From Cinnamomum chago (lineage: Eukaryota > Streptophyta > Magnoliopsida > Laurales > Lauraceae), in NCBI GenBank assembly GCA_038049695.1, contig CP142455.1:28743501-28807500 (forward strand): 64,000 nt of DNA, in the 5' to 3' direction. Positions 12,009-55,189 of the stretch are shown here, one piece after another (positions within the stretch are counted from its first letter, which is position 1; the number at the start of each line of letters is the position of its first letter). Under the pieces are notes generated by a model. The model was given only the letters and a program-made list of their open reading frames with translations, was not told the DNA's origin and did no database searches. A program made the translations under genes and the position numbers.

Positions 12009-12102
12009 GTTTGTTTCTCGTTAGATTGAAATGTGAGAAGCGGGCTTTTGCTTCCTTGGTAGTCTCACTCTCATCTTATCTTGCTAAAAAAAATCCCAAG
12101 CC

Positions 12103-18109: not shown

Positions 18110-18985
18110 TTGTTTTTGATAAATCTATATGAGTTTTTATGAAATTTATTTGAATTTTTGTGAAATTTATATTACTTTTTGTCAAGTTTATCTCAGTTTT
18201 AACAAAATTATATGAATTTATGTCAAATTTATCTGAGTTTTTCATTTTATGTCAAATTTATTTGAGTTCTGGAATAAATTTCTCTGAGTTGTAGACAAAT
18301 CTATCTGAGTTTTTGGCTAACTTATCTGAGTTATCGAACAAATTTATATGAGTTCTGGACAAATCTATCTGAGTTTTTGGCAAATTTATTTGAGTTTTGA
18401 AAAATATTGCTGAGTTTCTGACAAATTTATCTCCATTTGGCAAATTTTAACTGAATTTTTGAACTAAACTCAGGCTGTTCTTTTGAATTTTATTTGCATT
18501 TTTAAAAATAGATTTAACTGAGTTTTTGCAAAAATACTTGAGTTTTGGAAAATTTTCTGAATTTGGAAAATTGGTTATCTTAGTTTTGGAAAATTATTTG
18601 CATTTTTTTAAATTTATTTATGTTTTTTAATTTTATTTACATCTTTTGAAATTGATTTTCATCTTTCGAAAAAAAAATTTAAAATTTATTTGGATCTTTT
18701 GTAATTTATTTATATTTTTTGAAATTTATTTGGATCTTTTGAAATTTATTTGCGACTTTTTATATTTATTTGCTTTCTTTTGAAATTTATTGTGTTTTTT
18801 TTAAATTATTGCTTTTTTTTAAATTTTATTTGCGTTCTTTCGAATTTATTTGCATTTCTTAGTTTTATATACGTATTTTGAAATTTATTTTGGTCTTTTG
18901 GAATTTATGTACATTTTTTTATACTTATTTGGATCTTTTGGAATTTATTTATATTTTTTGAAATTTATTTGGATCTTTTGAAATT
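18110..18985. repeat. Degenerate 21-bp minisatellite, roughly 40 units
   Basis: Units such as CAAATCTATCTGAGTTTTTGG repeat at about 21 bp. They drift from a TGAGTTTT-type core on the left to an ATTTATTTGGATCTTTT-type core on the right. The 21-bp period equals seven codons, which explains the heptad-like peptide on the minus strand at 18258-18443. Strong T bias on the plus strand. Confidence 0.85.
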
Positions 18986-19656
18986 TATTTGGCTAATTGA
19001 ATGGTAGTTGATCATTACTAATGGCATATTCCACTAATCGTGGGATATGATTTTGAAGAAAGGTTAAATTAGACATTTTCGGTTTTTAAATTTGAAAAAT
19101 GGAACTATCACACAATGAAAAAAGATTGTGCATCTAATGCAATAAAGTGATATGTTCAGGGACCCGTCGCAGAATGCCCAAGAAAAAAAAAACCCTACAG
19201 TAAAACATTGGAGGTCATTTTACAGATTTAACCAGAGGCGCCTAGAATGCTAGGGTTTCTTATACTGATCGACTTGGAGTGGCTATAACTTCTATCAACT
19301 TTTGAATACTTAACCCTCAGTCTGCCTAGGACTACGATTTTCTCTCGGAGATTCAAGGTTCAAAACTACGCTACCATGCTAGGGCCAAATGGGATTTACC
19401 CAGCTCCCGCTAAGCCGGTAGAAATTAGTCTAGTCCAAAGGGCTGGGATACCCTTTGATATAAAAAAAATGAGGATTTTACCGAAAAATGCACCATATTT
19501 GCCCATTGCATAAGAAAATGAAGACTACTACCTAATGCACAAACGTGGTCCGTTATGCATGGTTTCGGGTTTTTTTTTTTTTACTTTGAAACAAGCGACC
19601 CTAGCGTTGCTCCATAATTTGATAGACGATGCTAGCATTGTTCTTTGTAAATCCCC

Positions 19657-19740
19657 TAAAGCCCTAGTTTCCCCCGTATTTTGATAGAAAAACTTGGACG
19701 CATACCTATGTCTTTCATCTCCTGGAAGAGCTTGAAGGCA
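19657..19740 (-). pseudogene. EMB2217-like PPR gene fragment, third part
   Basis: Directly continues the middle part when the solo LTR (19746-29376) and one GCATC duplication are removed. SGRLDA joins to AFKLFQEMKDIGMRPSF in frame. The match to the PPR gene stops within about 25 codons, close to the left inverted repeat. The captured piece therefore ends inside the second or third PPR motif. Most of the PPR array of the donor gene is absent from the window. Confidence 0.8.
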
Positions 19741-21504
19741 GCATCTGAAAAGTCCGGGGATCCGAACCCTAGAGGGGGGGGGGGGGTGAATAGGGTGAGC
19801 TTCATTTATGACCAATTTTAAACAATTTTAACTTCTTAAAAACAAACTAGTCACAAGTGTTGATTATCAAACAAAATGCGGAAGCTTAATGAAAACAATC
19901 ACCACAAAGCAAGCACCATCACACAAGGATTTATAGTGGTTCGGCCTCAATGCCTACATCCACTACCAGCTTGTGATCCAACACCCCACCGGATTTCCAC
20001 TATTTATGCTTTTCAATAGGTTAAGCAATAACCTTTATAATATGTTTTTCAAGGCTAAGCAATAACCTATACATTATGCTTTTATAGGCTAAGCAATAAT
20101 CTTTTCAACCAAAAGGTTGGTTATCTCTCTAAGTAGTGTCTAACATACACTTGATGGAGATACAAATTTAGCTCATTACATTTGCCTCTAAAATAGGTGG
20201 ATATGGAAGTGAAAAACTAACTCACACAAACACTTAATGAATGCAAAGATGTATGCTCATGATGTGTGTGTGTGATGTCCTCAATCATTTTGAAAATGAA
20301 AGCTCAAAAATGTATGCCCAAGGCTTTTGAAAGTTTTAGCTCATAAAAAGATTTATGATTGAGGAAAGAATGCAAGTCACATGTTAAAAGTAACAACTTG
20401 TTAATGATATCAAAGATTCACAAGTTGTATGAAATTAATTAGCTCTAAACATGTGATGCATAGGGATGTCAATCAAATCAACAATGTAGCTCAAAACATA
20501 AAAATAGATTTGATTGAAATAAGGGGACAAATCATATGTAATTATAAATACAACTTGAATATGATATACCAATCAATGCAAAGCAAGTTGTGAAACTTTA
20601 AAACAAAGTTACATATGATTTGTAAAGATGTTGAATTCAAAACATAAGATATATTTTGAAAGAGATTTTCTTATGATGAAAGACAACAACCAAAGATTCA
20701 ACCAAGTATATGAATCATGTTACATATAATTTCAAAGATTCTTTCATTAACATGATCTACTTAGATTTACCAAAGATAAAGTACTACTTGGATTGAATCA
20801 AATGGTTGTGCATCCAAAACAATAGATCAATTCAAAACATAGAACATGTTAAGGACACAACAAATCATAGTTTATCATGCTAAAAAGGATTTACCAATAA
20901 TTAAAGTAAAACATGAAAACATATGATTTGTAACAATGTTGAATCCAAAACATAAGATATATTTGAAAGTGATTTTCTTATGATGGAAAACAACAACCCA
21001 AAGATTCAACCAAGTATATGAATCATGTTACATATAATTTCAAAGAACATGATCTACTTAGATTTACCAAAGATAAAGTACTACTTGGATTGAATCAAAT
21101 GGTTGTGTATCCAAAACAATAAATTGTTAGGAATTTTGTAGATTGCAATTTGATGGATGCATAATCATTCTAGCATCATTTGATTCACACACATATGCAT
21201 TGTTTTAGATAAACTTGAAATCTTGTTTTATTCATGCATTGCTTTTAAGAGTTGTAAAAGTTTTGATTTATGCATGATTTGTTTTTAAATCTTGGATGCA
21301 TTTGTTTTAGAAAAGAGTTTTAGAAAATCAAGCTAGCCTATGAGTTTTAAATCTTTCAAAATGTTTTAGGCTTTTTATGTTCCATGTTTTAAAACCCTTA
21401 GAATGATTTAAAACATGTTTTAAAGCTTGATTTTATGGCCCAAATAATTCCACAAAGAAAAACTTTGTTTTTGCAAAAATTGGATTTTGGGGCCACTGCA
21501 GTGT

Positions 21505-21672
21505 CGCCGGTCGACCGGCGCAGAGGTCCCGGTCGACCGGGAACACTGCAAGGCAAAAATTTGGCCTGGCGCCCCAACGGTCAGAAATCTGACCGTTGTG
21601 TGTTCCCGGTCGACCGAGGCCTGTTTGCCGGTCGACCGAGAACTAGCCGTTGGCAACTTTTTGCTATAAATA
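21505..21672 (+). promoter_or_regulatory. LTR promoter: four GGTCGACC palindromes, MSA-like sites, TATA box
   Basis: Palindromes CGCCGGTCGACCGGCG (21505-21520) and TCCCGGTCGACCGGGA (21527-21542) are perfect over 16 bp. Two CGGTCGACCG copies follow (21607-21616, 21629-21638). Between them CAACGGTCAGA and TCTGACCGTTG face each other (21575-21598). The first lies in CCCAACGGTCA (21573-21583), a full match to the MSA consensus YCYAACGGYYA bound by 3R-MYB factors at G2/M. TATAAATA is at 21665-21672. The same module sits in the 3' LTR at 26756-26923. G2/M expression is inference. Confidence 0.6.
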
Positions 21673-21840
21673 TGAGTTCTTTCCCTTGCCAAAAGTTGGG
21701 AATTTTTAACCCCTCCTTGAGAGGATTTGAGGCATATCAAAAGGGAAAAGAACCAAGGGATGAAGGGGATGATTAGGAAAGCTAAAGCTTGGATTAATGA
21801 AGTTAAACCACCAAGTAGGCTCTTCCTTTCTTAATCATAT

Positions 21841-22655
21841 GTTTGCATGCTCTTGTTTTATTTTTGGTAAATCATTTCTAGCATGTTAAACTATGTTTGT
21901 GTTGTGTCCTTAACATATTTTATGTTTTGAGTTGATTTATTGTTTTGGATATAACATCACATGATTCAATCCAAGTAGTACTTGAATTGGTAAATCAAAG
22001 TAGATCATGTTAATGAAAAAACTTTGGTAAATCATATGTAACATGATCCATATACTTGGTTGAATCTTTGGTTGTTGTTTTCCATCATAAGAACATCTCT
22101 CTCAAAACTAACTTATGTTTTGGATTCAACTTCTTTACAAATCATATGTTTTCATGTTTTGTTTTATCATTGGTAAATCTTTGTAACATGTTAATATATG
22201 ATATGTTGTATCCTTAGCATATTCTATATTTTGAATAGATCTATTGTTTTGGATACATCACCATTGATTCATCAAAGTAGTACTTTATTGGTAAATCTAA
22301 GTAGATCATGTTAATGAAAGATGTAACATGATTCATATACTTTGTTGAATCTTTGGGTGTTGTTTTTCCATCATAAGAAAATCTCTCTCAAATGTATCTT
22401 ATGTTTTGGATCCAACATCATTACAAATCATATGTGTATTATTGTTTTAATGCTTCACAACTTGCCTTACTTTGATTGGTAAATCTTTTTCAAGTTGTCT
22501 TTATAATTACATATGATTTGTCCCCTAATTTTCAATCAAATCTATTTTTATGTTTTGAGCTTCATGTTGATTTGATTGACATCCCTATGCATCACATGTT
22601 TAGAGCTAATCCATTTCATACAACTTGTGTAACTTTGATATCATTAACAAGTTGT
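21841..22655 (+). other. Stem-loops with GGTAAATC loops in the 5' LTR
   Basis: Inverted pairs around a GGTAAATC-type loop: 21841-21851 with 21880-21891; 21959-21965 with 22004-22010; 22003-22012 with 22039-22048 (GATCATGTTA, perfect); 22143-22158 with 22185-22200; 22457-22464 with 22491-22498 (ACAACTTG, perfect); 22620-22628 with 22647-22655 (loop with TTGATATCATT). The solo LTR at 19746-29376 keeps several of the same stems (for example ACAACTTG/CAAGTTGT near 20583) although its loop reads GGTATATC. The 3' LTR repeats all of them at 27092-27906. Confidence 0.7.
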
Positions 22656-23330
22656 TACTTTTAACATGTGATTGCATTATATCCTCAATCATAAATGTTT
22701 TATAAGCTAAAACTTTCAAAAGCCTTAGGCTTACATTTATGAACTTTCATTTTCAAAATGATTGAGGATCACACACACACACACTTCATTTGTTTTCATC
22801 TTTGCATTCATAGTGTGAGTGTGTATTTGTATTTCACTTCCATATTCGCCTATTTAAGAGGCAATGTAATGAGCTTAATTGAATCTCCATCAAGTGTATG
22901 TTAGACACTAATTTAGTGAGATAACCAACCTTTGGTTGAAGAGGTTATTGCTTAGCCTATAAAAGCATAGTGTATAGGTTGATGTTAAGCCTTGAAAAAC
23001 ATCAATGTAAAGGTTATTGCTTAGCCTTGGAAAGCATATTGTAAAGGTTATTGCTTAGCCTATTGAAAAGCATAAATAGTGGAAATCCGGTGGGGTGTTG
23101 GATCACAAGCCGGTAGTGGATGTAGGCATTGAGGCCGAACCACTATAAATACTTGTGTGATGGTGCTTGCTTTGTGGTGATTGTTTTCTTTAAGCTTCCG
23201 CATCTTGTATGATTAATCACCACATATGACTAGTTTGTTTTAAAGAAGTTAAAATTGTTAAAATTGGTCATAAAAGAAGCTCACCCTATTCACCCCCCCT
23301 CTAGGGTTCGGATCCCCATGGACTTACAAG

Positions 23331-23341
23331 TGGTATCAGAG
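23331..23341 (+). other. Primer binding site of the LARD-like element
   Basis: TGGTATCAGAG, complementary to the 3' end of plant initiator Met tRNA, begins 2 bp after the end of the 5' LTR. This is the usual start of minus-strand synthesis. Confidence 0.9.
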
Positions 23342-23478
23342 AGGGTTACTCCATTTTAGGGCTTAACAACCCGGAGTTGATCCTTGCTAGATTTGAACCC
23401 TAGTGTTGTGATTTAATGCATATCTTTTTAAAGATTTCCACTATGTTTGAAAATGTTTTATTTTCCCTAGCCTCATTG

Positions 23479-25850
23479 CACCACTCTTAGTCTTTTTCAA
23501 GTTATATCTTTAAGAGTTGGTGAGTCCTCAAAATTATCTCTCTTGGACAACCTTTTCAAGACCTTAGGTGAATTTTCAAAGGTAGACTATTTGAGTAACC
23601 TTAAGGCCTTGATACCCCTAGACCAACCTATGCTTTTTAGTTATATCTATTTGTTGGTCATAGTACATTTGCATTTTGTTTCTTTATAGTCACATCTTTT
23701 AAAATGCAATGTTTCTTTGTGATCATTTGATTTTGTCTTCATGATCTTTTAAGTTATATCTCTTGGTTTTCAAAATCCTTTGATTGCAATTCTTTCATGA
23801 TGGATTTGCATGTTGTTCATTTAGTAATATCTCTTGTTGTGCATATCTATTCATGATCAATTGATTGTGATTACAAATGCTTTCATAGCTAGTTTTTCAT
23901 GATCAATTGATGTTGGAAAATCATTTGATGATTGTCATAGTTATATCCTTTTTGGAAATCAAATGATTTGAAGCAACTTTAGTTTTCCATTGATTTATAA
24001 GTTATATCTTTTGATATGGAAAATTTGTGAGTGACTATTGTTTCAAAAATTGAAAATTTTATAATAGTACACTTCTTGTTTTTCAAATTCACTTGCTCTT
24101 AATTCTATAATTGATTCCTTGTTGGAATTTCAAATGTTGAAGTGATTTGAGAAACTTTGGAAAATGTTCTAAGCTTTATTAGTTATATTTATAGAAACAT
24201 TTTCCTTGAATCTATTTCCTTGTGCCTAATTATGATTATATCTTTTGGAAGGAAATAGTTGTTACAAACAATTTGCATCTTTGCTCATTAAGTTACATTC
24301 TTTATGCAAATTGATTTTGTTGTCTTACATTGCATGGTTGGATATGTTTCATTGATTTGCATGTTTGTGCCTAACTTGGTATATTCTCATTAATGCATTT
24401 TGATGATTGTTTATGTGCTTTATAGTAAAATCTTGTATTTGAGCTTTTTAAGTACATATGTGATTTTATGTGCTAAGTTCATTTGGTTTAAACCACATAT
24501 CCTTTTCCATTGCATTGTAAGCATAGTACATTTGCTAAGAGTGGAGATGTTACATGATAGCTTAATGGATCATTTTAGATGAATTGGAATTAAACCATTA
24601 TTCTTAATAGGTATATCCATTTATGTGGTCCATCTTCATCTTTATGTGATCCATGATGTCTCTCTCACTTCATACCTTCTTGTGCTTTCAAAAGTTATAT
24701 TCTTTATTGATGATTGGTATGAGTTAGATCTTGAGTGTTGATAGATCCTCTCTATGCAAATGTCAAAGTGTTCTATGTATGGTTGTGTTATTTATTACAT
24801 TTGTAGAAACCATACTAGAACTAAAATCCATCCTCTATGCTTTTATAGTCATTTCTATTTGGATGGTTATGATGTTGATTCATGTGTATTCTCTAAGTGA
24901 TTTCATTCTTATACATGTTTCAACTTCATAAGTAGTGTTCTTAATCATATGAAACTCTTTGAAACCCATTTCTCATATTTCTATATGTTTGATGGATATC
25001 TTAGATGTTGAATTCATATGATTTAGACACTTTGGAAATTGCATGCTTTACCAAGTCATATCTTTTTGCATTGCAATTTCTCTTGTTCATCACTATGCTC
25101 TTTAGTTATATCTTTAAAAGTGATGAATATGCATTTATGATGCTTGATGGATTTTTGTCACATTCTTGCTCTTTATCATGTTATCAAATTCAATTAGTTT
25201 CAATTGGTATAATGTTTGATTGATTTGATTTCTTGTGAATGTGATAAATCTTGTGTGCATTGGATTGAACTTGATAAGTAATATGGTTGTTCCATGTCAC
25301 ACACCATTAGCATCATTATGCTCTTGTTGCCACCTCTCTTTGCTCTCATAGGTAAATCTCATGACCACCATGTTTATGTGTTAATAATATTGGTTGGTTA
25401 TTATTTGAGGTTGGCTTCATGATTGAATTTCATTTCACTCTTTCATGCACTTTAATAGTCATATTTATTGATTGAATGAAATGAGTTCAAAACTTACATA
25501 GCATATGATTTTCATAAGTAATATTGATTGATGCTATGTTTGAGTAAACCCCATATCATGGATAGCTCTAATTTGGATTTTTCCTAATAGGTATATTTTT
25601 AAATCCATTTTAGAGTGATTGATTTAAATAGTCATATCCTAAATCTCAATTGGTATTCTTTGTCTTTCCAATTGATATCCATGATGGCTTTTTCCATAGA
25701 CCTTGCTTTCTTTTGGCAATTTGATCATATGAGCTTGATAGTTAAATGAATCTAATCCTTTCTTTGAAGTTGACCCTCACTTGGTTAAACCATCTTCTTC
25801 TTGTACCTAATAGTTAAATCTTATCAAAAGTTTGACAAAAGAAGAGAATG
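23479..25850 (+). other. Array of about 20 stem-loops: variable stems, conserved AGTTATATCT loop
   Basis: Stem pairs read by eye: 23479-23489/23511-23522; 23621-23627/23653-23659; 23666-23677/23701-23711; 23722-23735/23771-23784; 23795-23811/23840-23856; 23918-23929/23958-23969 (12 bp perfect); 23983-23990/24016-24023; 24050-24056/24080-24086; 24159-24170/24193-24205; 24212-24221/24249-24258 (10 bp perfect); 24269-24278/24304-24313 (10 bp perfect); 24670-24676/24716-24722; 24770-24784/24808-24821; 24828-24833/24861-24866; 24874-24889/24911-24924; 25035-25046/25068-25080; 25086-25094/25119-25127; 25253-25263/25292-25302; 25425-25439/25473-25488; 25496-25504/25531-25540; 25566-25580/25601-25615; 25621-25626/25640-25645; 25647-25653/25668-25674. 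Loops are about 15-50 nt, most about 20-40, and most hold AGTTATATCT or a close variant (AGTCATATCT, AGTAATATCT, GGTATATCC). Confidence 0.8.
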
Positions 25851-25989
25851 GATTGAGGGGGAGTGTAAACCTTCATAGGAAGTATTAGTTTTGATCAAAT
25901 TGACCCTTAGATTGCCTTTGAGCCCTTAGAGTTAACTTTCATACATGATAGCCTGTTACGTATTTCATTTTCGATTTCATTTGTTAACA

Positions 25990-26375
25990 GGTGCTACTAA
26001 AGGTATTTTCCTTATTTCATGTGTGTAGGTACCTTTGCAATTTAATGTCAAAGGGGGAGAGAGAGTTCAAGTACTCAAAGATCTCCTACTCTTCAAAGGG
26101 GGAGAGAGCATTCAAGGGAGAGAGAGGCATGGTCAAAGGGGGAGAGCAAATAGAAGAAAGAAAGCTTGGAGCTAAAGAAGATGCTTGGCTAAAGAAAGAA
26201 AGATTGAAGAATGATCAAGCTCCAAGCATCATGAAGAATGAAGAAAAGAAAAGAGCCCAAGCTAAGAGAAACATCCAAGAAGATTTCAAGCATTGTCCAG
26301 CTGAGGGGGAGCTGAAGACTAAGTGTGTAATCTCAGTGGTGAGTGTGTTTGCCATCAAATTGCAAAGGGGGAGAT
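25990..26375 (+). other. Purine-rich 3' region with repeated polypurine tracts
   Basis: The 12-mer CAAAGGGGGAGA occurs exactly at 26049-26060, 26094-26105, 26134-26145 and 26363-26374. The last abuts the 3' LTR and is the functional polypurine tract. Weaker relatives lie near 25855 and 26303. A charged 133-codon frame (25991-26392) covers the region but has no recognisable motif and runs into the LTR, so I do not call it a gene. Confidence 0.7.
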
Positions 26376-28581
26376 TGTTAGGAATTTTGTAGATTGCAAT
26401 TTGATGGATGCATAATCATTCTAGCATCATTTGATTCACACACATATGCATTGTTTTAGATAAACTTGAAATCTTGTTTTATTCATGCATTGCTTTTAAG
26501 AGTTGTAAAAGTTTTGATTTATGCATGATTTGTTTTTAAATCTTGGATGCATTTGTTTTAGAAAAGAGTTTTAGAAAATCAAGCTAGCCTATGAGTTTTA
26601 AATCTTTCAAAATGTTTTAGGCTTTTTATGTTCCATATTTTAAAACCCTTAGAATGATTTAAAACATGTTTTAAAGCTTGATTTTATGGCCCAAATAATT
26701 CCACAAAGAAAAACTTTGTTTTTGCAAAAATTGGATTTTGGGGCCACTGCAGTGTCGCCGGTCGACCGGCGCAGAGGTCCCGGTCGACCGGGAACACTGC
26801 AAGGCAAAAATTTGGCCTGGCGCCCCAACGGTCAGAAATCTGACCGTTGTGTGTTCCCGGTCGACCGAGGCCTGTTTGCCGGTCGACCGAGAACTAGCCG
26901 TTGGCAACTTTTTGCTATAAATATGAGTTCTTTCCCTTGCCAAAAGTTGGGAATTTTTAACCCCTCCTTGAGAGGATTTGAGGCATATCAAAAGGGAAAA
27001 GAACCAAGGGATGAAGGGGATGATTAGGAAAGCTAAAGCTTGGATTAATGAAGTTAAACCACCAAGTAGGCTCTTCCTTTCTTAATCATATGTTTGCATG
27101 CTCTTGTTTTATTTTTGGTAAATCATTTCTAGCATGTTAAACTATGTTTGTGTTGTGTCCTTAACATATTTTATGTTTTGAGTTGATTTATTGTTTTGGA
27201 TATAACATCACATGATTCAATCCAAGTAGTACTTGAATTGGTAAATCAAAGTAGATCATGTTAATGAAAAAACTTTGGTAAATCATATGTAACATGATCC
27301 ATATACTTGGTTGAATCTTTGGTTGTTGTTTTCCATCATAAGAACATCTCTCTCAAAACTAACTTATGTTTTGGATTCAACTTCTTTACAAATCATATGT
27401 TTTCATGTTTTGTTTTATCATTGGTAAATCTTTGTAACATGTTAATATATGATATGTTGTATCCTTAGCATATTCTATATTTTGAATAGATCTATTGTTT
27501 TGGATACATCACCATTGATTCATCAAAGTAGTACTTTATTGGTAAATCTAAGTAGATCATGTTAATGAAAGATGTAACATGATTCATATACTTTGTTGAA
27601 TCTTTGGGTGTTGTTTTTCCATCATAAGAAAATCTCTCTCAAATGTATCTTATGTTTTGGATCCAACATCATTACAAATCATATGTGTATTATTGTTTTA
27701 ATGCTTCACAACTTGCCTTACTTTGATTGGTAAATCTTTTTCAAGTTGTCTTTATAATTACATATGATTTGTCCCCTAATTTTCAATCAAATCTATTTTT
27801 ATGTTTTGAGCTTCATGTTGATTTGATTGACATCCCTATGCATCACATGTTTAGAGCTAATCCATTTCATACAACTTGTGTAACTTTGATATCATTAACA
27901 AGTTGTTTCTTTTAACATGTGATTGCATTATATCCTCAATCATAAATGTTTTATAAGCTAAAACTTTCAAAAGCCTTAGGCTTACATTTATGAACTTTCA
28001 TTTTCAAAATGATTGAGGATCACACACACACACACACTTCATTTGTTTTCATCTTTGCATTCATAGTGTGAGTGTGTATTTGTATTTCACTTCCATATCC
28101 GCCTATTTAAGAGGCAATGTAATGAGCTTAATTGAATCTCCATCAAGTGTATGTTAGACACTAATTTAGTGAGATAACCAACCTTTGGTTGAAGAGGTTA
28201 TTGCTTAGCCTATAAAAGCATAGTGTATAGGTTGATGTTAAGCCTTGAAAAACATCAATGTAAAGGTTATTGCTTAGCCTTGGAAAGCATATTGTAAAGG
28301 TTATTGCTTAGCCTATTGAAAAGCATAAATAGTGGAAATCCGGTGGGGTGTTGGATCACAAGCCGGTAGTGGATGTAGGCATTGAGGCCGAACCACTATA
28401 AATACTTGTGTGATGGTGCTTGCTTTGTGGTGATTGTTTTCTTTAAGCTTCCGCATCTTGTATGATTAATCACCACATATGACTAGTTTGTTTTAAAGAA
28501 GTTAAAATTGTTAAAATTGGTCATAAAAGAAGCTCACCCTATTCACCCCCCCTCTAGGGTTCGGATCCCCATGGACTTACA
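26376..28581 (+). repeat. 3' LTR of the LARD-like element
   Basis: Nearly identical to 21125-23328 at an offset of 5251 bp, and 2 bp longer because of a CA-repeat near 28021. It follows the polypurine tract directly. Confidence 0.9.
26756..26923 (+). promoter_or_regulatory. Same promoter module in the 3' LTR
   Basis: Identical by eye to 21505-21672, with TATAAATA at 26916-26923. Transcription from this LTR would run outward through the solo LTR into the PPR pseudogene fragment in antisense. Confidence 0.55.
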
Positions 28582-29381
28582 TAAATCAATTCAAAACATA
28601 AAACATGTTAAGGATACAACAAAACATAGTATATCATGCTACAAAAGATTTACCAAAAATAAAACAAAGCATGACAACATATGGTTAAGGAAAGTAGAGC
28701 TTACTTGGTGATTTAACTCATTAATCCAAGCTTTAGCTTTCCTAATTATCCCCTTCATCCCTTAGTTCATTTCCCTTTAATTTGCCTCAAAACCCCTCAA
28801 GGAGGGCCTTAAAATTCCCAACTTTTGGCAAAGGAAAGAACTAGTATTTATAGCCAAAAAGTGCCCAACGGCTCTTTCCCGGTCGACCTGGCCCCTTCCC
28901 GGTCGACCTGGAACACACAACGGTCAAAAATAGATCCGTTGGTACTTCAGGAACCCAGTCGACCTGCAGTGTGGCCGGTCGACCGGGTCCAGCTGGTCGA
29001 CCCCCTGGGACCAAATTTCCCATAAAAGCATATTTTAAAGTATTTCTTGGGGGAACCTTTGGCCACTAAATCAAGCTTGAAAAACATGTTTTAAAACATT
29101 CTAAGGGTTTTTAAAACATGAAATATAGAAAGCCTAAAAAGATTTGAAAGATTTAAAACATAGGCTAGCTTGATTTCTAAAACTCTTTTATAAAAAACAA
29201 ATGCATCCAAGATTAAAACCAAAACATGCATAAATCAATACTTTTACAACTCTTAAAAACAATGCATGTATAAAACAAGATTTCGAGATTTCTTAAATCA
29301 ATGCATATGTGCTTAAATCAAATGATGTTATAATGATAATGCATCCATCAAATTGTAATCTACAAAATTCCTAACAGCATC

Positions 29382-29926
29382 AAGGCGCCCGGATTTAGCA
29401 AGACTTGGTATCATCGGCTCAAATGTCGAAACATCCAGCGAACACCCGGCCTCTTCCATGGCCTCGTAGATTTCAAATGCCTTAAAAGGAATACCTTTGT
29501 TTAAAAACAAGGTTATCAGTGAATAATAATTCTGGGTATCAATCTTACAGCCCGAATCCTTAACTATCTTGAACAACAAAACGAAACCTTCAACTTTCTA
29601 GCCTTGGCTAAATGTTGGATAACTCGATTATAAGCTGTGAAAGAACCAATTCCATGATCGCCTCATTCTCTAATCATTTCATCAAATAGAGACTGAATTC
29701 CATCGAAATCTCCGTTCTGATTCAATTGATCGAATAACAACACAGAAATCTCATCTTTTGGGGAGTACCAAGATTGCCTCTTGGCCCATCCAAACAACCC
29801 TATTGACGCATCTATCTCTCCAACCTCGCTCAATGCCTGTTTCACATGAGACATGTTTGGGACAAAATGGAGTTTAACCAATTGGGTCTCCATTTCATGC
29901 CTCTATTTCCATCTCTTCACTATTTC
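29382..29926 (-). pseudogene. EMB2217-like PPR gene fragment, middle part
   Basis: Continues exactly from the first fragment once the LTR and one target duplication are removed (AKMDEIVKRWK spans the junction). It then reads METQLVKLHFVPNMSHVKQ, SIGLFGWAKRQSWY, FDGIQSLFDEM, AYNRVIQHLAKARKL, SGCKIDTQ, KAFEIYEAMEEAG and SLAKSGRLDA. These are the start of the PPR array. There are two in-frame stops (after KRWK and after EMIRE) and a 1-bp frame change between FCCS and FKIVKD, so it cannot encode the protein. Confidence 0.85.
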
Positions 29927-30990
29927 ATCCATGTTACACCCCGACCCAAGCTAACCATGATTAACGCTAATTAATTAGGATTAATGCTAGTTAAACATGA
30001 GTAATTGAGTTAATGAAGATTAATGACTAAAGAGAGATAAATTAGTCTCAAATGATGCATTAACCATAATGAAATGAAATTGAGTTGGTTAAAATGAGTT
30101 TAGACTCAAACAAGGTAAACTAAGGATTTTTTTCGTAAATACAGGTCTCCGTGTATTTCGTTATATACGGAAGTTTTTGATACTAACGTGTGTATCTCGA
30201 ATAGTATGTTAACTTTCATAATAGACACGACTCCGTTTGACCTTAAATAGATCAAATGAGGCTCTATTTAACTCAAAATGTAATAAGACTTAATAAAAGG
30301 GGGTTTTAGTGTGAGAGCCTATTATATTAGAATGAACTGAGTTATTCATTCATTTCACCTTAAGAAAACCTTAGACTCATCTTCATCTTCTTCCTTTCCC
30401 TCTCAATCTTCTTTCCCAAGAGAGAGGCTAGGAGTGATTCAAGTGGTTTTGAGGAGTGTAGTTTCATCCTTATCTTCTTCCTCAAGCCATTTCCCCCATT
30501 TTGAAGTGATAGAGCTTGAAAGAGAACTCAAAATCTTTTTACTTGGAGCCACAAGTAAGTAGTTGGTCTTATCTTAGGATTTCCAAGTTCTATTGAGTAG
30601 ATGGAGGTAGTGCGTAGCAAAAATAGCTTATGAGTAGTGTTTTTATGTTTCATGGATTAGGGTTTGAGTTTGGGGGAAGATTGTGCCAAACCAAGCTAAG
30701 GAAAAATGGGGCTTTTACTACTAAGTTTCAAGAGAGGCAAGTATAAACATTTACTTGTGATTGGTGTTAATCATTGTAGAAGTTCATGGAACTTTCATGA
30801 TTTTGTGCATTTTCTATTGAGTTTGGAATTATTTGTGGATTGTATGAAATGGTTAATGAATGATTAGAAGTGTTGTGAGGGGGGAACAGGAGGTTCCAAT
30901 GCTATTGTAGGTTGTGGATGAGGAATGGAGACAGGAAGATAGAAGAAGAGAGAGGGTATCAGATTTTCGGAGTTAGAACTCTGGACAATT

Positions 30991-31147
30991 CACTCGAGTT
31001 CGCTCGAGCGACCAACGTTCTGTGACAGAGTGAACGTTCAGAATTTCAGAATTCTAGACAGTTCGTTCGCGAACAGGGAGTTTGCTCGAGCAACCAACGT
31101 TCTGTGAGACGTCCGCTCGAGCAAACTTGGATTTGCTCGAGCGAACC
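30991..31147 (+). promoter_or_regulatory. Cluster of CTCGAG and GTTCGCGAAC-type palindromes
   Basis: Five CTCGAG hexamers, a TTCGTTCGCGAAC palindrome and two copies of GAGC(G/A)ACCAACGTTCTGTGA lie within 157 bp of otherwise AT-rich LTR. Organisation and CpG content recall the GGTCGACC clusters of the neighbouring LTR families, but the sequence differs. Confidence 0.6.
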
Positions 31148-32074
31148 TAATACAGGTCCAGACATTAATTGTGAGTGAAATTTTGGATTTTGGATTTTTG
31201 GATTTTTGCATGGATTTGGAGTACTTTATTGTTAGTATAAGTGCTCCCTAAATTAGTTTTAAGCCTAAACTTCCATGGGTGATAATTACAGGGAATATAC
31301 AATGCATACATTAAATATATAAATGTGATGCCCATCGAGAATAGCACGTGTATTTGTAAATCAATGGTTACACCCAAATGGTTGCTTATATTTGAAATAG
31401 AATTAAGTAGAACCATAAATGATTAGTAAGTTCTCTCATTATATCGTATTCCACATTGTTGAGTCCCAATCTAGTGAGATTGGTATTATCGTTATTCCCT
31501 TCTCTTGTTATGAAGAGAATTATTGAATTGAATTGAATTGAATCCAGAAGTGAATTGCTTATTGGAAAGCATTAACTCTTGAGTCTGGCACTACCTAGCT
31601 ATGATATTAGAACTTTAAATGAGTTCAATGAATTAATAAATGAAACAAATGACTATTCCTACTGCAGTAGATGGATTTGGGGCGTTCCGGAGCTCCATGG
31701 TGATGCTAGTTGTCCCTGACCTGGACACTAGTAAGTGTGAGGCCCCACCCTCTGTGGGCCCTCAAATTGCTATTTTATAGACTAATTATTGCTAATTTAT
31801 ACTAATTATTGGTTAATTATGCTAATTATTGCTAATTATTGCTAATTACTATTTAATTGGGTTAATTAGGGGATTATTAGGGTGATTAGTTAGATTCTTC
31901 TAGCTTGTAGTTAGATTGGCTTAGTTGAGTTAGTATTTTAATTAGTAAGGGGTTTTGGTTAATCGTAGGCTATTAGTGCTAGTTAGGCCCTTAGTTGAGT
32001 CTAATTAATTAATTAGGAGAAGGTTTAGTGCTAATGGTGCTCCTTCTCTAGAACCTTCCTACCAAAAGACACCA

Positions 32075-32155
32075 CTAACCCTAACCCTAACCCTAATCAC
32101 ATGAAACCCAAGGGCTAATCTTGCCTTAAGCCACCCCTCCCCTAATCTATAAAAT
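32075..32155 (+). promoter_or_regulatory. Telobox-like CTAACC repeats upstream of a TATA box in the 3.6-kb LTR
   Basis: CTAACC is repeated three times followed by CTAA (32075-32096), giving AACCCTAA words, and TATAAAAT follows at 32148-32155. Telobox motifs near the start site are known in plant promoters of growth-related genes. A telomere origin is unlikely because the plant telomere unit is CCCTAAA. Confidence 0.45.
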
Positions 32156-32978
32156 GGCTCTTATCCCAAGGAGAACCCTAAACCAGCCACCACTGTTCAT
32201 CTTAATTTCCCTCTTCTCCTCTCCCTCATTTCTTCCCTTCGTATGAGCTGATCTTGCTACAATGACTCTGCTGGGATTTTTCCCTAAGAGCTACAACTGC
32301 TACCTCATCTTCCTTCTTCATTTCTCTCTACTTCCCTTCCCATTTCCTCTCTTCTTTCTTCCTCATTTCTCTCTTTTCCCCTGTTACTGCTGGGAGCAGC
32401 AGTTGTTACTCCATCCTCTTTCTCTCATTTGAGCTACTGCTACGTTTCTGTGCTGAAGAAATTATAGCTGCTGCTACTACTTCTTCTTCTCCTCTGCTGT
32501 GCTGGAAGCCACTGGTTGTGCTGAAGATTATCTCCTAGGAGCTGCTACTCTGCTGCAGCTTCTTCTTCTTCTTCTTCTTCTCTGCTGGGTTGGGGCCTCT
32601 CTCTTATATTACTCTCTTTCTCTCTACAACCTTCCTTCATTTACAAAAAGGCAAGTGCACCTACTGACAACTTAGAATATATGTGTTTTACCTTTGATTC
32701 CTGTGATTTAATTTCATGTATGTGTTATATTAAGTTGTAGAAATTCACCTGAGCTCTGTTGTTGTTGTGGATGGGCTGGCCATTGATGAATGGGGGTTTC
32801 ACCCCCCATTTGGAAGATCAATGGGTCCAAATATGGTTAATTGATGGGCTTGGGAGTTGATTTATGTTTGGAGATGAATTGGAGAAGTTTGAGAAGGTTT
32901 GGAAGTGGTTTGGGTGAAAAAGGAGCCAAAACGGAGAAACTGCAGAAGTTGGAACTGTTCCCAGTTTCGTGTACCCGA

Positions 32979-33327
32979 TTAACAAGGGTGGTTAACCGGC
33001 AGTGTGCCCGGTCGACCGGGTAGCAGGCCGGTCGACCGGCCACATTGAAAAAGGGAAAACTGCAACTCCCAGTTATTTTCTGCAGGGACTTTTTGCAGTT
33101 CAGCCGGTTAACCGGGCTCTGCAACCGGCCAAACTGCATTTTTGCAGAATTTTGCTCCCAGTTAGAGTTTCTGCAGGGGGGAGTTCCTGTTGGGCAGGTT
33201 AACCGGGCCCCCACCCAGGTTAACAGGCCAAACTGAAAAGTGGTGGAAAAATTGGCCCTCAGCCATTTCTTGCATAAATTTCATTCCAAATAGTCAGGTC
33301 GACCTGGTCTTGCACCTGTTGACCTGG
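32979..33327 (+). promoter_or_regulatory. Cluster of GGTCGACC and GGTTAACC palindromes in the 3.6-kb LTR
   Basis: At least seven GGTYRACC-type palindromes, including CCCGGTCGACCGGG and GGCCGGTCGACCGGCC near 33007-33042, GGTTAACCGG near 33104, GGTTAACCGGG near 33200 and GGTCGACC near 33298. The word GCAGTGTGCCCGGTCGACC closely matches GCAGTGTCGCCGGTCGACC in the LARD-like LTR at 21498. Here the cluster lies downstream of the putative TATA box. Confidence 0.6.
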
Positions 33328-34924
33328 TTCATACTATTTGTGCAAGAAGTGACTGAAAGTTGGTTTTTCGACCGAAACTCAGACTCCTTACACCCGAATC
33401 AACCTGATATCTAGGATTTTTACTTTAGAAATGTCTAAAGCTGGGACATCAATCTCTCTAGGGGTTTTTGGAGTATGCGGTTAATCACCCAGGCCAGGGG
33501 TTTGACCGGACACGCTGGCAACCTTTAGAAACGAATTGAGTTGTCCAGGAAGCCTGATTCAGATTAGTCAGTGCACTCGGTTGATCTTCCAGGCCAGGAA
33601 ATCAACCGAGCTCACCATACATCAGGTTCACCTGGAAAACCCTGATTTTCCAGCTTTCAACATTTAGGAGTTGTGATCAGTTGTGGGGCCCATTGACCAT
33701 CCAAATGAGAGTTTATCAATGTTCTAAGCCCGAGTCAACGGTGTGGTTCAACCGTGACTCGCGGGGACCACTGAGTAGTGTTTAGGTTGTTAATCTAAGA
33801 TGATTCGACCTCTAAAAGTTGTCAACGATGCCCGTAAATTCCTAAGCACTAAATACAACATTATTTGGCATCAATGACTTCGTTTAGAGATCGAATTACA
33901 GGAGATAGACCTGAACCTAATGTGACTCATTACCTAGGTTTGGACCTTTGTATTTTCCCTATTGATTCATATGTTGAAGTTCATACTTCTTTATTACTAT
34001 TACTGTCGTTCGTAGACCTTTAGAGTAGCTGTTAACCGTTAATTAAACATAAATGGAGGACCTGAACTTAGGATATCCTAGAGGTGACCCGATAGTGTGA
34101 TTTTGGGAGAACATTGACCCGTGTCTGTGTCTAGGCGGGCCCGTATTGGGCCTAAGTGTGGAGATGTGTACCTTTAGTTGGGAGAGGTAGTTTTTATTGG
34201 ACTGTTAAGTTATATGGATTGAAATTGAACTGTTTATCAGTATAAGTGGATTAGTTGCCTCGTTTGGACGGTTTTAGACCAGGCCATGTACTGATGGGCC
34301 TTGGTATGGATCCAACGAGTGGGCTTGGACCTTGAATGAAATCCATAGACTGAATTGGTATTTGTAGACCTCATAGAGACTTGGTTAGGACCTTGTTCAC
34401 GTAAGGCAAGGCCTAGACAGACACAGACCCTTAGAGTATTCCTGAGTCGGCATGAACATTCACTCGGTTGATTTAAGCTCAGCCTGTGGACTGATCATCC
34501 CCGGTAGGAGCTAGTTGAGTGTTGAGAAGCTATCATGATGAGCTGTGTGGTTAAGACGGACGGTGTGATACCGTGCCGGTCTGGAGTGTCGAGATGATGA
34601 GTTGATGAGATGATTTGCGGGATTAGTAATTCCTAGCACTAGTGAGATTTCCCCGCCGCAACTGTGTTCAGTATGGGAGGGCCGCGGCATAATATCTCGC
34701 GGTATTCCAGCTCGTGTGAATGTGTCATTTCGTGTAGTAGTTTAGATGTTTATATTTATCTGATTCCTTATGATTAAAATGCACAACTGCTTAGTTCTTT
34801 ACCTTGCTATTCATTTGATCTATATACCTGTCTTTATTTCCTTTGATATATATGTTCTATGTTAGTAGTATGCTGTAACTTGCCAGATCTTTTAGATCTA
34901 ACCCATTCATTTGTGCTTAGGCCT

Positions 34925-35049
34925 TGACCCAGAGATCCCAGACGATGCTTTAGCCTTAGTGGAGGCACCGATAGCTGGAGAGTTCGCATGGGACCCGGCC
35001 GACGCGGATGTCGAGCCGGAGGACGGAGACGATCTACATGGGTTTTGAG
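34925..35049 (+). other. GC-rich, coding-like island near the 3' end of the 3.6-kb LTR
   Basis: One frame reads DPEIPDDALALVEAPIAGEF then an acidic tail VEPEDGDDLHGF and a stop, in sequence far richer in GC than its surroundings. A comparable island, GPIVLAGLAAPLAAAEE, lies near the 3' end of the enclosing LTR at about 35729-35797, preceded by an acceptor-like ATTACAG. Function unknown. It may be the remains of a short leader peptide or merely a structured GC-rich block. Confidence 0.3.
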
Positions 35050-36182
35050 GGTCTTTTATTAATTTGGGCTTTGAGAGAACAATTTTGTAGTGAGTTGGGT
35101 AGAATTCAAAAATGTATAAACTTTGATTAACACTGAACCGTTTTAATTAGACTGTAGTTCTGCTCACACTTTACTTATATATCGATACCTATTGCTTCCA
35201 CTTTATTTAATCGTTATGCTTCCGTAATTTAAATGTTATTACTATATTGGTCAAAAAGTTTTAAATTGGACCTCACTGCGGCCTACGATCTTGGAAGTTC
35301 TCGGATTTTCCGGGAAGTAGCGCGCCAACTTCGGGTATTCGAACGGTTTTATCGGTACCCGGAATTGGGGCGTTACAGTAAGTCTCACAATTCCGATCAT
35401 ATCTATGGATATTGATTAATGCATTCCATTTGGAAGATGAATCATTCCTTTGAGGGAAGATGGTAAATGAAATGAAATGAAATGCAATAAAATGAAATGT
35501 AATGAAATGAATGTTGTGGTAATGACCATCTTGTACATGTCTATTGATTAACTCAGATCTTAAGTTTACCTATTGTCATTGTAGGAATGATCTAGACTTG
35601 TCTAGAATTGTAATTATTACTAAATAGATTTAATGAATTTAGTATATGTATCAACATGTGCTTTACAAGATCTGTTTATACATTGTTGAACCATCGTGTT
35701 CACTAGTGTTATTGATGGCATTACAGGTCCGATTGTCCTTGCCGGTCTAGCAGCGCCCCTGGCGGCAGCGGAGGAGACCGCTACGGTTCCTCTATGAGGA
35801 CTAAACGAATGGAATGGACGGGATACCATTTAATATGGGTATCCGAGTGCGAGAAAGAACTATAACATTTTGAAAAGTTATTTTATACATTCATTTTTGG
35901 AATGTAATTAACTATCATCTGCATTGTGTTTTGGATATGCAGTGTTTGACAAACAAATGATGGGAATGATACATGTATAAGGACTTTATTTTGTATACAT
36001 GTAAATCGTAAATTAATATTGTCAAGTATAAATGTTTCCGCAAATTGTTTATTTGTCAGGTATATTGAGAATGTTATTCCTTGTGGATTCCGTTTTAACT
36101 TCGGTTAATTCGGAATTTACGGAAGTAAGTATGTGTTCACGGCTCGGGGTTATTGTAGTTCGGCATGGGTCATTACAATCCA

Positions 36183-36611
36183 TCTTCGCAACCACATAAG
36201 CATTTAAAATGGCTTCTTCATGCTCCCAACCATGACATGGCCATCGAGGCCTGAGTCGACGGACCGGATACCCTTTCCTAAGAAGATAACATCCCCAAAT
36301 TCATCCAAGCAAACGATGTTATCAGTCCACTCGGAAAAACCATCCGTGGGTGTCTTCTCAGAAGCAAAATGGCGGCATAATGGATGATTATTTATTCGTG
36401 CAGATGAAAAGTACAACGAAACTGAATTGGAGATGATTGGAATACGAGAAAATGTGAATTTGGTGAGATGGGGTTGTTGGGTTTGATGAGCGTGGAAGGT
36501 TTTGATGTTTCTGTGGATTTGGGGGATGAAAGTGTAAGGAATAGGATTTATGTGCAATGTGGGGGAGGTGTGCGGCTTCTGGGGCAGGGGATATACAGCG
36601 AAGAGTGACAC
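36183..36611 (-). pseudogene. EMB2217-like PPR gene fragment, N-terminal part
   Basis: Reads from SLFAVYPLPQKPH through FASEKTP, EWTDNIVCLDEFGDVIF and GKGIRSVDSGLDGHVMVG to SMKKPF. The order and words match, from memory, the N-terminal part of Arabidopsis EMB2217 (At1g79490), an organelle-targeted pentatricopeptide repeat protein. No ATG opens this frame: the match starts at GTG (36611-36609), right at the inverted-repeat boundary, as expected for a captured fragment. After KKPF a 1-bp frame change leads into NAYVVAKM, and the next 5 bases are the target duplication of the solo LTR at 29932-36177. Confidence 0.8.
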
Positions 36612-51115: not shown

Positions 51116-54100
51116 TAGTGGGGCCTACAAATCCATCCGTCAGGCCTTAACCTGTAAATACAAACCACAAAAATGAACGCTAACCTTGTAGTGGCTCACA
51201 TGCAAATTTCACTTAAATAAGAGTCAGGAAGACCATCAAGTTTATCACTAGTAAAACACTGCGTCTTTGTGTGTGTGTGTGTGTTTTTTTTTTGACAGAA
51301 ACTTACTGTAAACCTTTATAGCATGGGCAAAGGCTAGTTAGAAAAGAACCTAGATCCTCTGTAGCTTCCAGCACTGACTTGTTTTGAAATGGCTCTACAA
51401 GTTGTAAATGACGCTGGGTCCCCAATAACTTGACCCAGTCTTTCAAGTTTCAGCCATTGGGCTAAGGTTTTTCTTTAAATTTTGACTTCAGATTGTCTCC
51501 ACCTTTAGTTAAAGACTCCCCTACTATTTTATTTTATTCTTCTCTGTGTCATATCCAAATAGAAGACATGAGTTTATTATTTTTTCAGGGGCTGTCTTCC
51601 CAATAAATAAAACTAAGCTTGTTATTTTAGCCACCGGCCAACAAGAAGTAGGTTGAGCATTGTGTTCTTTTCCATCAAGCTCGACCACAGAAATTGATAC
51701 AATAAGAAGTCCTCCCTTATCAATTAGCTACCTAATTTATGGCCTCTACAAAGCCTTTATCAATTGTTAATTTACAGTTAACAGCGCATAATCGACCGAA
51801 TTTTGTTTTTGGCAGGTGGCTACTCTTCAAAGCCTTTATTTTTAACTCTTTTTTTTGGTAAAAACCTTCATTTTAACTAGTAAGAAAGTGAACTCCACAA
51901 ATGCAGCATACTATGCATAAATGAAGAAAATAAATTTCCATTAATGCCAATCCGAACTCTCAAAAGCTTTATTAGCATAATCATCCATTTGTTGGAAATA
52001 AATTAAAATAAATCGCTACAACATTAAACAAATTGGTGCTGCATCACAGAAGAAAAAACCATATGCATTGGTGCAATGACACTAAAATAAATTTCACTTT
52101 CCATCTAAATCAATGAGCTGAGCAAAATTCTTCAAACTGCACATTGATTCTAACTCATCTTGTATTAACTTTAAGGCACCTAAATCTTTTTGCTCAATGG
52201 CAGTAGGGATCATAGATCATGTGTTTTTCACATGATGAACTTGCTTTGATTTTCTACAAGAAATGGAGTGAGTGGAGTTAATACCATGCAAAGTGTTTGA
52301 TCAATCCACGGTGGGCCGTTAATGTGGTGCTGCCACATCAAAATAAAGTGCGACTTTCTACCTAAATCCAATTGTTGAGCCTACCCTGTATTAAACTCAA
52401 ACTGCTCACCCATTCCAACTTAACTGTAGCCCATATTTTGAACTCAGTAGCAGTGGGGATAAAGACCATGTATTTTTCTCATGAAGAACTCCCTTTGAGT
52501 TTATAAAGAAAAGAAAAGGAGTGGGTTACTATCATGTAGAACTTTTGATCAACCCATGCTGGGTCTCAACGTAGATATGATTGGAATGACAACCGGTGTC
52601 AATTCAAGGGGAGTTAAGAGTGAAAATGAATATGATTAATGTAATGTAGGCCTCAATGCAAAGTAAGTGAGAGTTTATTATGATTGTTTTGAATTTCTAG
52701 TTAATCATAGTAGGGTTCACAATTAAATTGATCCACTTTCTTTTCTTTTTTTTTTTCCTATAAAAGCGGGAGAGAAAAGTGGGGCTCACCTTTTTCACAT
52801 TCCTATTTTTTTCAGAGATACTATTAGAAATTGGAAAGAAAAATGCTATAAATTAAAATTAGTTACCTCATTTTCGTTGTCCTTCTTCGGTAGTCGTCTT
52901 TGTTTTAGAGGGAATAAGCCTTTCACGGACGCATTTTGTAGAATTAAAATGAATGATTTGGGGAATATGCTGGAGATTTACACCTTCATCTCCCTGAATC
53001 TTCATTACCAATTCCCCCGACATGTCTTTTAGGAATAGAGACTGGAGACATGTAAGGTACTGAATGCCCTCAGGCACGCTCTTCAACTCAGGGCAGCTGA
53101 CCGAAACTATTTCTTCAATGCAACTCTTTGATTCCTCTTCTATGTATATCTTATCCAATAGGGGGAGATGAATACACTCAAACTTCTTGAGTTTCAAGAA
53201 GCATCCACAACGAATGCATAGTTCCTTCCCAACATATGCCTTACTAAGATAAAGGAAAACAAGATTAGGCAAAGCTTGGAGTGGAGACAATGGATCATCA
53301 TTCAGTTGAGACCAATGTAAATACACTTTTGTGAGCTCATGAAGGGATCCAATCCAGGGAGGAAGCCTCTCCAAACGCCCTATTGATGCAAGGGTTTCAA
53401 GATGGGTAGGAGGGTGATCAGATAATGAATCCAAATCAAGTATTTCTTCCTCTGTTATAGCAATTACTGCCAAAAATAGAAGGGATTCCAATTTCTGGAA
53501 GGAGGCACATAGCTCTACTACATGGTATCTTTTTACCCGTCCAATCATCAATTTCCGTAGTTGAGTCAAGTTTCCGACTTTTCTAACTATCTCATCATCT
53601 GCTCCAATGAGTTTTAAAGTTTGCAAGCACTCTAAGTTGCATATTCCAGTGGGAGTTGGTGGGGAATCATAAGGATTAAAAACTGCTACCAGATCATACT
53701 GATTCTCTACTCCTTTTAAAGGATAACTATATGTATACAAGTGCCTCAATTTCTTTAACTTCTCTACTCCTTTTGGTAGAGTCTTTATTCCCGAATTCCT
53801 ATGTCCAACGTTTGCAAGTTCCGAAGCCTATCTATAGATTTTGGAAGCACCTCAACTTGTGTATTTCTCAAATTCAAGTAGCATAAATTGAATAATTCAA
53901 CTAATTCATCTGGCACATTCTTAATGGAGGAAGCCTGTAGATCTAACACTCTCAATAATTTAAAGCTTGATGCAATGCTATTCAAAGAAAGTGAAGGAAT
54001 TTGTATTGAGAACAACATCAAGGAGCGAAGATGACAAGTACTTGACCAAATGTTTACAATGCTATTGTACATTGACAAGTGACGGGCTTTATTCTTTTGA

Positions 54101-55189
54101 GTGTCTTCTTTACCATCATGTACATTGCAAAAGTTCTCTTCACGGCTATTTGATAGAGCCAACTCTCGCAATACATCATGCATTCGGAGCAATTTTCTTT
54201 TTTTTTTTATCATCCTCCACAGCTTGAAGCATGTTTCTACATATGAGGTCTTGGACATATTCTGCAGCCACATCCTCTAGTGTGTGTCCTCTACGCTCTT
54301 TTATAAACCCTTCTGCAATCCATAACCTTATCAACTTATTTTGCGGAATCGAGCAATCTTCAGGGAAGAGACTAAAATATAAGAAGCAGTATTTGAGGTT
54401 ATATGGCAGATCGTTATAGCTAAGCAAAAGTATGTTCTTCATCCTTTCCAATTCTTTATTACTACTTAGCTGCCAACTAAGAATATCTTCTACCTTCTTC
54501 CATTCCAAACCGAACTTTCTTTTCGTTGACATGAGCCCCCAAATAGCAACAATCGCTAGAGGCAAGCCCTCACATTTTTGTACTAAGCTTTCTACATATG
54601 GCTTCAGCTCCGAAGGACAGCTTTTGTTGGGAAATGCTTTCGTAGAAAAGAGGACCAAAGCATAAACATTGCCTAAAGGCTCAAGGTGGAGAACATTTTC
54701 ATCAATGAAAGATGATGAGACATTCTCTTTCCGTGTTGTGATTATGACTTTACCTCCACATCAATTGTTTGGGAATGCCACTTGTATGTCTTCCCAAACA
54801 GTAGATTCCCACACATCATCTAAAACAATCACATACTTTTATTCTGCAAATAGTTGGTCACCATATCAACAAGATCGCCTGTATTCATTTCATTAACGGC
54901 ATCCGGAATGGCCTCCTTGTTAGACTTGTGCAGCTCTTTTATCGTGCTCCGTATTAGCTCTTCGACTTTGTATGACTCGGAGATGGTGATCCATGCATGG
55001 CATTTGAAAAAGTTCTTCACTTGTGGGCTATTATAAGCTTTTGTAACGAGAGTGGTCTTGCCAAGGCCGCCCATTCCCACCACACAGACCACTACACGCT
55101 CTGGTCTTTCTTCTGTCAACTGTTTAATTAAGAAATCTTTGTTTTTCTGGATCCCCACAATGTCGTCATCTGAGATGAAGCGTAGATAT

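Follow-up and report, generated by a model that had tools for sequence, protein, structure and literature searches.

A non-autonomous LTR element with Sirevirus-type termini and an interior array of hairpins, about half of them with the same loop motif

We compared a 64-kb window (the whole stretch of 64,000 nucleotides that was analysed) with itself and found two near-identical direct repeats of ~2.2 kb. These are the LTRs of an LTR retroelement that occupies 21125-28581, and positions 23479-25850 are part of its interior. A sequence-only reading had taken the latter region for the interior of a retrotransposon, and the LTRs, the 5-bp target site duplication (TAAAT) on both sides of the element, the PBS and the polypurine tracts (PPTs) around it bear this out. 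The features are:

21120-21124: target site duplication TAAAT, left copy
21125-23328, plus strand: 5' LTR, 2204 bp
21508, 21530, 21607 and 21629, plus strand: CGGTCGACCG boxes in the 5' LTR
21665, plus strand: TATA box TATAAATA in the 5' LTR
21840-22690, plus strand: leader hairpins with loop word TTGGTAAATC (21864, 21987, 22024, 22170, 22288, 22476)
23329-23342, plus strand: LTR/PBS junction CA/AGTGG/TATCAGAGA, of Sirevirus type by the available part of PMC2829016
23479-25850, plus strand: hairpin array, 35 local hairpins (gapped search) and 24 loop-motif sites
23918-23969, plus strand: clearest unit of the array, a perfect 12-bp stem and a 28-nt loop with AGTTATATCC
25086-25127, plus strand: another clear unit, a perfect 9-bp stem and a 24-nt loop with AGTTATATCT
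25856-26373, plus strand: linker with six AGGGGGAG polypurine tracts (25856, 26052, 26097, 26137, 26304, 26366)
26352-26365 and 26394-26407, plus strand: inverted repeat around the last PPT and into the 3' LTR, 14/14 complementary
26376-28581, plus strand: 3' LTR, 2206 bp
28582-28586: target site duplication TAAAT, right copy

The two LTRs differ by three substitutions over 2204 aligned bases (divergence 0.0014), hence the insertion is recent. The interior, 23329-26375, is 3.0 kb long, and the array (30% G+C, T-rich) spans it from ~140 bp past the PBS up to the first PPT. The last PPT (26366) is followed by the AT/TG of the 3' LTR, with TG at 26376, and the 3' LTR counterpart of the leader hairpin region is 27091-27941. 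Given the TATAAATA box at 21665, most of the LTR would be expected inside the transcript, and the positions of PBS, PPT and TATA box place the array within this expected transcript as well. On the minus strand, 19750-21124 and 28582-29376 are the pieces of an older, oppositely oriented LTR from the same family, which the insertion of the element split in two; in the self-comparison they are 82-86% identical to the LTR of the young element.

Sireviruses are Ty1/copia elements of the Pseudoviridae and are plant-specific, according to the available part of Bousios et al. 2010 (PMC2829016); together with the Rx_N/NB-ARC/LRR frames of the window, this points to a plant. The termini of the element agree with the features described there: multiple AGGGGGAG PPTs near the 3' LTR, the last one 10 bp before the LTR and followed by the AT/TG site; an inverted repeat that borders the PPT and reaches into the 3' LTR, here a perfect 14 bp, against a longer reported average of 28 bp; a CA/A[TG]TGG/TATCAGAGC junction (alike as CA/AGTGG/TATCAGAG), here CA/AGTGG/TATCAGAGA with the last base differing; and repeated CGG-CCG palindromes upstream of the TATA box, here four CGGTCGACCG per LTR (21508-21638, with TATAAATA at 21665). 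Autonomous Sireviruses differ in carrying gag-pol, with or without env. No gag, pol or env was found here; a 2.4-kb hairpin array stands in the interior instead. For Sireviruses, that same part of PMC2829016 describes a single PPT stem loop as well as an inverted repeat where gag meets pol, and no hairpin array. The gag-pol of an autonomous Sirevirus is missing from the interior frames scanned. Since the longest interior stop-to-stop frame is 134 aa, and none of the 10 interior frames scanned (of 21 listed) reached the Pfam cut-off, the element is a non-autonomous derivative with Sirevirus-type termini. A coding origin of the interior was rejected on the same Pfam scan, and the earlier statement that the element codes for nothing agrees with these results.

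With LTRs around a non-coding internal core domain (23329-26375, no recognised protein), the element resembles the LARDs (large retrotransposon derivatives, e.g. Sukkula), whose internal core domain encodes no protein either. LARDs are without genes, and their RNA structure is said to be well conserved; in contrast to the element, they are not described in the available part of PMC7215508 as having a row of hairpins whose stems are unit-specific and whose loops carry one motif. The 2.2-kb LTRs and 3.0-kb interior do not fit a TRIM, which has short LTRs and almost no internal domain. For a retrozyme, an Rfam search listed 15 matches with E values of 5 or less, of which none is a hammerhead and none attains its gathering score; the best ones fall on the LTR palindrome region. 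A second copy of the interior was not found by exact pattern in IMG/VR and bacterial records. Exact-pattern scans returned no IMG/VR match for the PPT pattern, 11 loci in bacterial records and, for the loop pattern, three IMG/VR contigs. Because none of these 14 loci has the PBS word and three of them (L012-L014) have no PPT, we treated them as chance and rejected them as relatives.

A further element and a probable solo LTR lie in the window. A separate copia element at 55218-60042 has 219-bp terminal direct repeats that are 98.6% identical and AGGGGGAG at 59806; its gag-pol frames, with Pfam RVT_2, rve and Retrotran_gag_2, occupy 55576-58674 and 58577-59146. By eye, 31736-35377 is probably a solo LTR (TGTGAGG...GTTACA), flanked on either side by GTAAG; it also has GGTCGACC and GGTTAACC palindromes, though it is not Sirevirus-like in look.

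Exact Watson-Crick stems (at least 8 bp, loops of 15-45 nt) were counted in 23479-25850 and in 60 dinucleotide shuffles of it. Fifteen were found, against a shuffle mean of 2.67 (maximum 5); nine are 9-12 bp long, and none exceeds 12 bp. The loop motif, at 8/10 identity or better, lies within the loop of nine of the 15, against a shuffle mean of 0.07 (maximum 1), and shuffled controls are thus not as rich in loop-centred stems. We also ran a gapped search that penalises all mismatches equally, with 40 shuffles as control. This returned 35 hairpins, against a mean of 27.85 and a maximum of 33 in shuffles at this low threshold. Total hairpin score was 338 (shuffle mean 230.9, maximum 272), hairpins covered 85% of the array (70% in shuffles, maximum 76%), and 25 hairpins scored at least 9 (mean 11.1, maximum 17). 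Stem and loop motif had been said to coincide beyond chance, and they do: in 17 of the 35 hairpins the loop contains the motif at 8/10 identity or better, whereas shuffles average 0.8 such hairpins (maximum 3). The further statement that each stem encloses the same loop stands for these 17, or for 23 of the 35 when 7/10 is accepted, but not for the rest (18 hairpins are without a motif of 8/10 or better). Nineteen blocks outside 18977-36500 reached at most 31 hairpins, a total score of 279 and 15 hairpins scoring at least 9. Collectively, the array is real, and it is distinguished by stem strength and loop content more than by hairpin number. Its loops are mostly 20-30 nt long, and the motif lies off-centre within them.

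Folding in 150-nt windows, which the sequence-only reading had proposed, gave a mean z of -1.57 for the 15 windows from 23479, +0.38 for the next one, across the array end, and -1.23 for all 20 windows across the interior. In 100-nt windows, the mean z on the plus strand was -0.98 for the array, -1.45 for the LTRs and -0.28 for the rest; on the minus strand, the corresponding values were -0.65, -1.58 and -0.22. Per 2.4 kb, exact stems number up to 18 in a block on the LTR and up to 15 in blocks on the array, against a median of 3. The excess of structure extends beyond the array to the LTRs and is not peculiar to the array, since the LTRs have the lower mean z and exact stems are equally many there.

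The consensus of the loop motif is AGTTATATCT, preceded by pyrimidine-rich and followed by T-rich sequence; most of its information is in the core positions A1, G2, A5, A7, T8 and C9. A PWM refined from the array sites of 8/10 or better, and hence trained on the same sites it counts, found 24 sites on the plus strand of the array and none on the minus strand (40 shuffles: mean 0.45, maximum 2), and no loop-motif site in the LTR. Over both strands of the whole window, 20 matches to AGTTATATCT with at most one mismatch were present against 7.44 expected; 11 of them fall in the array, all 11 on the plus strand. The units had been described as recurring about every 60-100 bp, which holds for the median motif spacing of 72 but not for the range, an irregular 29-246. 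Some motif variants resemble splice-site words. In the predicted plus-strand ensemble, the motif is unpaired at 0.595 against 0.477 array-wide, a value reached by 1 of 5000 random sets; with flanks shuffled, it is 0.520 (maximum 0.579, 60 replicates). The minus-strand ensemble gives a similar contrast (0.667 against 0.542).

Retroelement RNAs are packaged as dimers, and retroviral dimer initiation sites are a precedent for kissing loops. We therefore considered that the near-palindromic AGTTATATCT might pair with itself on a second RNA, as its consensus is 8/10 self-complementary. The motif variants do not keep this self-complementarity, however: of 120 pairs that could form, 66 are complementary, where permuting the letters of each column gives 67.3, and pair 3-8 is complementary in none of the 24 sites. 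Dimerisation through kissing loops is disfavoured on these grounds, and we consider it very improbable. Retroviral dimer initiation sites and psi are likewise hairpins in the RNA of LTR elements, though they number one or a few, in contrast to the long string found here, in which self-complementarity of the loop is not maintained.

We asked how specific the stems are to their units. At 22 motif anchors, the mean best exact stem was 6.18 bp, against 3.81 bp over all array positions; none of 20,000 random draws reached this value, and shuffling the anchors' own flanks gave 3.60 bp (maximum 4.55). In a swap test at 24 sites, the mean exact stem was 6.50 bp with a site's own 3' flank and 3.74 bp with the flanks of other units, and the predicted energies were -12.37 and -8.56 kcal/mol, respectively. 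Neither the observed stem length nor the observed energy was reached in 20,000 permutations. The own 3' flank was the sole best partner at 13 of the 24 sites; at the remaining 11 the stem is short or beyond the searched spacing, as at 24693, where eight pairs including one wobble enclose a 39-nt loop outside that spacing. The units thus have a common loop, and their own arms match each other better than they match those of other units.

The swap test upholds the earlier claim that stems differ from unit to unit, though only in part: some relatedness among the stems is evident, as a stem 8-mer is common to both members in 22 of 595 hairpin pairs, against 3.0 in shuffles (in this control the 3' arms were exact complements, hence somewhat fewer words). 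Across 15 hairpin pairs, the common stem words number 11 in the same orientation and 8 flipped. This suggests that units were duplicated or exchanged long ago and then diverged while their pairing was maintained. When 16 motif hairpins were aligned with MAFFT (from a list of 19, five long-loop ones were dropped, and two others added), the stems were misaligned, and the alignment was set aside. Tandem duplication had been judged insufficient as an explanation, and we concur; an ordinary tandem repeat was rejected, since TRF reported only one row in the array (25 bp, 1.9 copies), and a BLAST self-comparison no array-internal repeat of at least 60 bp at E 1e-8.

These controls also bear on the view that the array is a product of chance or composition in AT-rich, T-rich DNA, or a decayed tandem repeat. 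A G+C content of 30% and the weak hairpins that shuffles already yield would fit it, and the stem words in common are a hint of old duplication. However, shuffles, outside blocks, random anchors and flank swaps all fall short of the array in stem strength or motif content and refute pure chance, and the TRF and BLAST results speak against a decayed repeat. Taken together, such an origin is highly improbable.

The motif is confined to one strand, in the sense of the expected transcript. Pairing alone names no strand, since the minus strand pairs as well and passes the swap test; the strands differ in MFE mainly through composition (-2.33 kcal/mol with own flanks, -1.97 with swapped ones). Non-Watson-Crick positions in stems scoring at least 8 comprise 13 G.T and 4 A.C in the array, 14 and 2 where the LTR is predicted to be transcribed (21700-23328), and 2 and 3 in the LTR part before the TATA box. 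Pooled over the predicted transcribed parts, G.T exceeds A.C by 27 to 6, with p 0.0003 against equality and a borderline p 0.055 against composition-matched shuffles (LTR part alone, p 0.03). For the array alone, the excess over shuffles is not significant (13/17, p 0.38; at a lower threshold 16/20, p 0.47). If decay is otherwise symmetric, the G.T excess favours plus-strand RNA; it leans to RNA and does not settle the level at which the stems act.

The inverted repeats might also have arisen in DNA or cDNA, by fold-back copying or template switching around the motif, and the RNA fold would then have no function. The nine exact stems of 9-12 bp, the pairing of both strands and the recurrence of stem words in both orientations would be in keeping with such an origin. 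By contrast, the motif is off-centre in mostly 20-30-nt loops and has one orientation only, and many independent events would each need to have preserved the same loop. Moreover, the stems carry bulges and mismatches and so resemble aged hairpins with pairing kept, and the predominance of G.T over A.C in the transcribed parts, although borderline against shuffles, points to RNA. We rank this origin third and regard it as improbable.

Past its TATA box, the 5' LTR contains another loop word, TTGGTAAATC, in six copies. The best exact stems at these sites are 6, 4, 10, 6, 4 and 8 bp, against 4.42 LTR-wide, and the clearest hairpin has a perfect 10-bp stem (22003-22048). Three tandem duplicates of ~306 bp account in part for the number of copies. 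Array site 25350, AGGTAAATCT, is intermediate between AGTTATATCT and TTGGTAAATC. We compared the young and the older LTR at 21 LTR hairpins scoring at least 8, with 33 gapped pairs set aside. Two compensated pairs were found against 1.45 expected, and 34 broken pairs against 43.25 expected (149 of 2000 simulations were as low); compensation between these stems is not significant. By eye, one stem position of the homologous leader hairpins is C-G, T.G or T-A among the copies; at the corresponding place of the third duplicate, the stem is another one, ACAACTTG/CAAGTTGT. This variation in the leader duplicates is no more than suggestive; a MAFFT alignment of six of these hairpins was too poor for a pair count.

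An element without its own gag-pol is assumed to depend on proteins supplied in trans (PMC7215508, available part). As a gene-less young element would be assumed to be mobilised in this way, its interior would be free to be cis-acting RNA, as opposed to decayed gene sequence. Transcription would start after the LTR TATA box, and the transcript would fold into a string of hairpins, about half of them presenting one loop motif. Such a string with one loop was the form that the sequence-only reading had foreseen for the transcript, and it is still the most economical reading. The loops may represent many weak copies of one recognition site; a binder that recognises the loop whatever the sequence of the stem beneath it would be expected to leave stems free to vary while pairing and loop stay. 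The sequence-only reading had already named the Gag of a helper element as a possible binder, which is a sound conjecture. The most likely partner would be the Gag of an autonomous Sirevirus, which we rank first because many weak loop copies on variable stems are the design of a packaging-signal array. The array could then act as dense packaging signals, by which the gene-less RNA would be captured into helper particles, reverse-transcribed and integrated. We thus tentatively interpret the locus as a Sirevirus-derived, LARD-like element whose interior is a cis-acting RNA hairpin array with packaging signals for the Gag of a helper Sirevirus, and consider this a little short of an even call.

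The array has the many dispersed stem-loops with a common loop motif that are characteristic of packaging-signal arrays. The 1239-nt STNV genome is said to contain as many as 30 stem-loops whose loops bear the motif AXXA (PMC3593212, available part), and packaging signals are said to vary in primary structure, with a motif that is visible only in the context of secondary structure (PMC3662417, available part). As far as these parts describe them, the arrays of ssRNA viruses (STNV AXXA, MS2) resemble the present one in their many stem-loops, common loop motif and variable stems. They belong to RNA genomes with known coat proteins, whereas here the array lies in an LTR element, its loops are longer (mostly 20-30 nt) and its partner is a candidate.

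The same RNA hairpin array might instead be bound by a host protein, for export, stability, localisation or shielding from silencing. The anatomy of the array says nothing on the partner, and many RNA-binding proteins would be suited by a loop that is rich in U and has a constant core. Dicer-like cutting usually needs longer stems than the exact ones of the array, which at 12 bp or less are below the usual length, and this too is compatible with a host protein. On plausibility only, dense repetition of one site fits assembly on RNA better than a single regulatory event. We rank the host protein second and view it as somewhat unlikely.

The array might also serve the host as a small-RNA template, or be what is left of inverted repeats connected with silencing, such as the LTR palindromes of maize Sireviruses, which the available part of PMC10760457 links to small RNAs. 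The maize palindromes, however, are CGG-CCG palindromes of the LTR, whereas the array has short stems and repeats the loop instead; a role of this kind appears very unlikely.

Returning to the packaging reading, it is possible, though we are doubtful, that the element represents a new class of parasitic retroelement RNA, which would have exchanged its genes for loop-presenting hairpins and would outcompete the helper genome for capsid protein via a multiplied recognition site, with a second, related set (TTGGTAAATC) in its LTR leader. LARDs and Sirevirus LTR palindromes are already known; a string of unit-specific stems with one loop as the interior of an element was not found in the open-access literature among the matches listed, in their titles and the starts of abstracts. 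To our knowledge, how helper particles choose gene-less LTR elements is largely open, and an interior made of a repeated candidate recognition site would allow a direct test of this choice. If the loop is bound by Gag, it would give the packaging signal of a Sirevirus, and the multi-site packaging model would be extended from RNA viruses to retrotransposons. In maize B73, Sireviruses reportedly account for 21% of the genome (PMC10760457, available part).

Elsewhere in the window, 9153-12020 (minus strand) is a 955-aa resistance-type frame with Rx_N, NB-ARC and LRR domains. Two further frames lie at 52868-54760 and 60020-60559 (minus strand): the blocks with the LRR match (52868-53827) and the Rx_N match (60020-60559) are 74-75% identical to the frame at 9153-12020.
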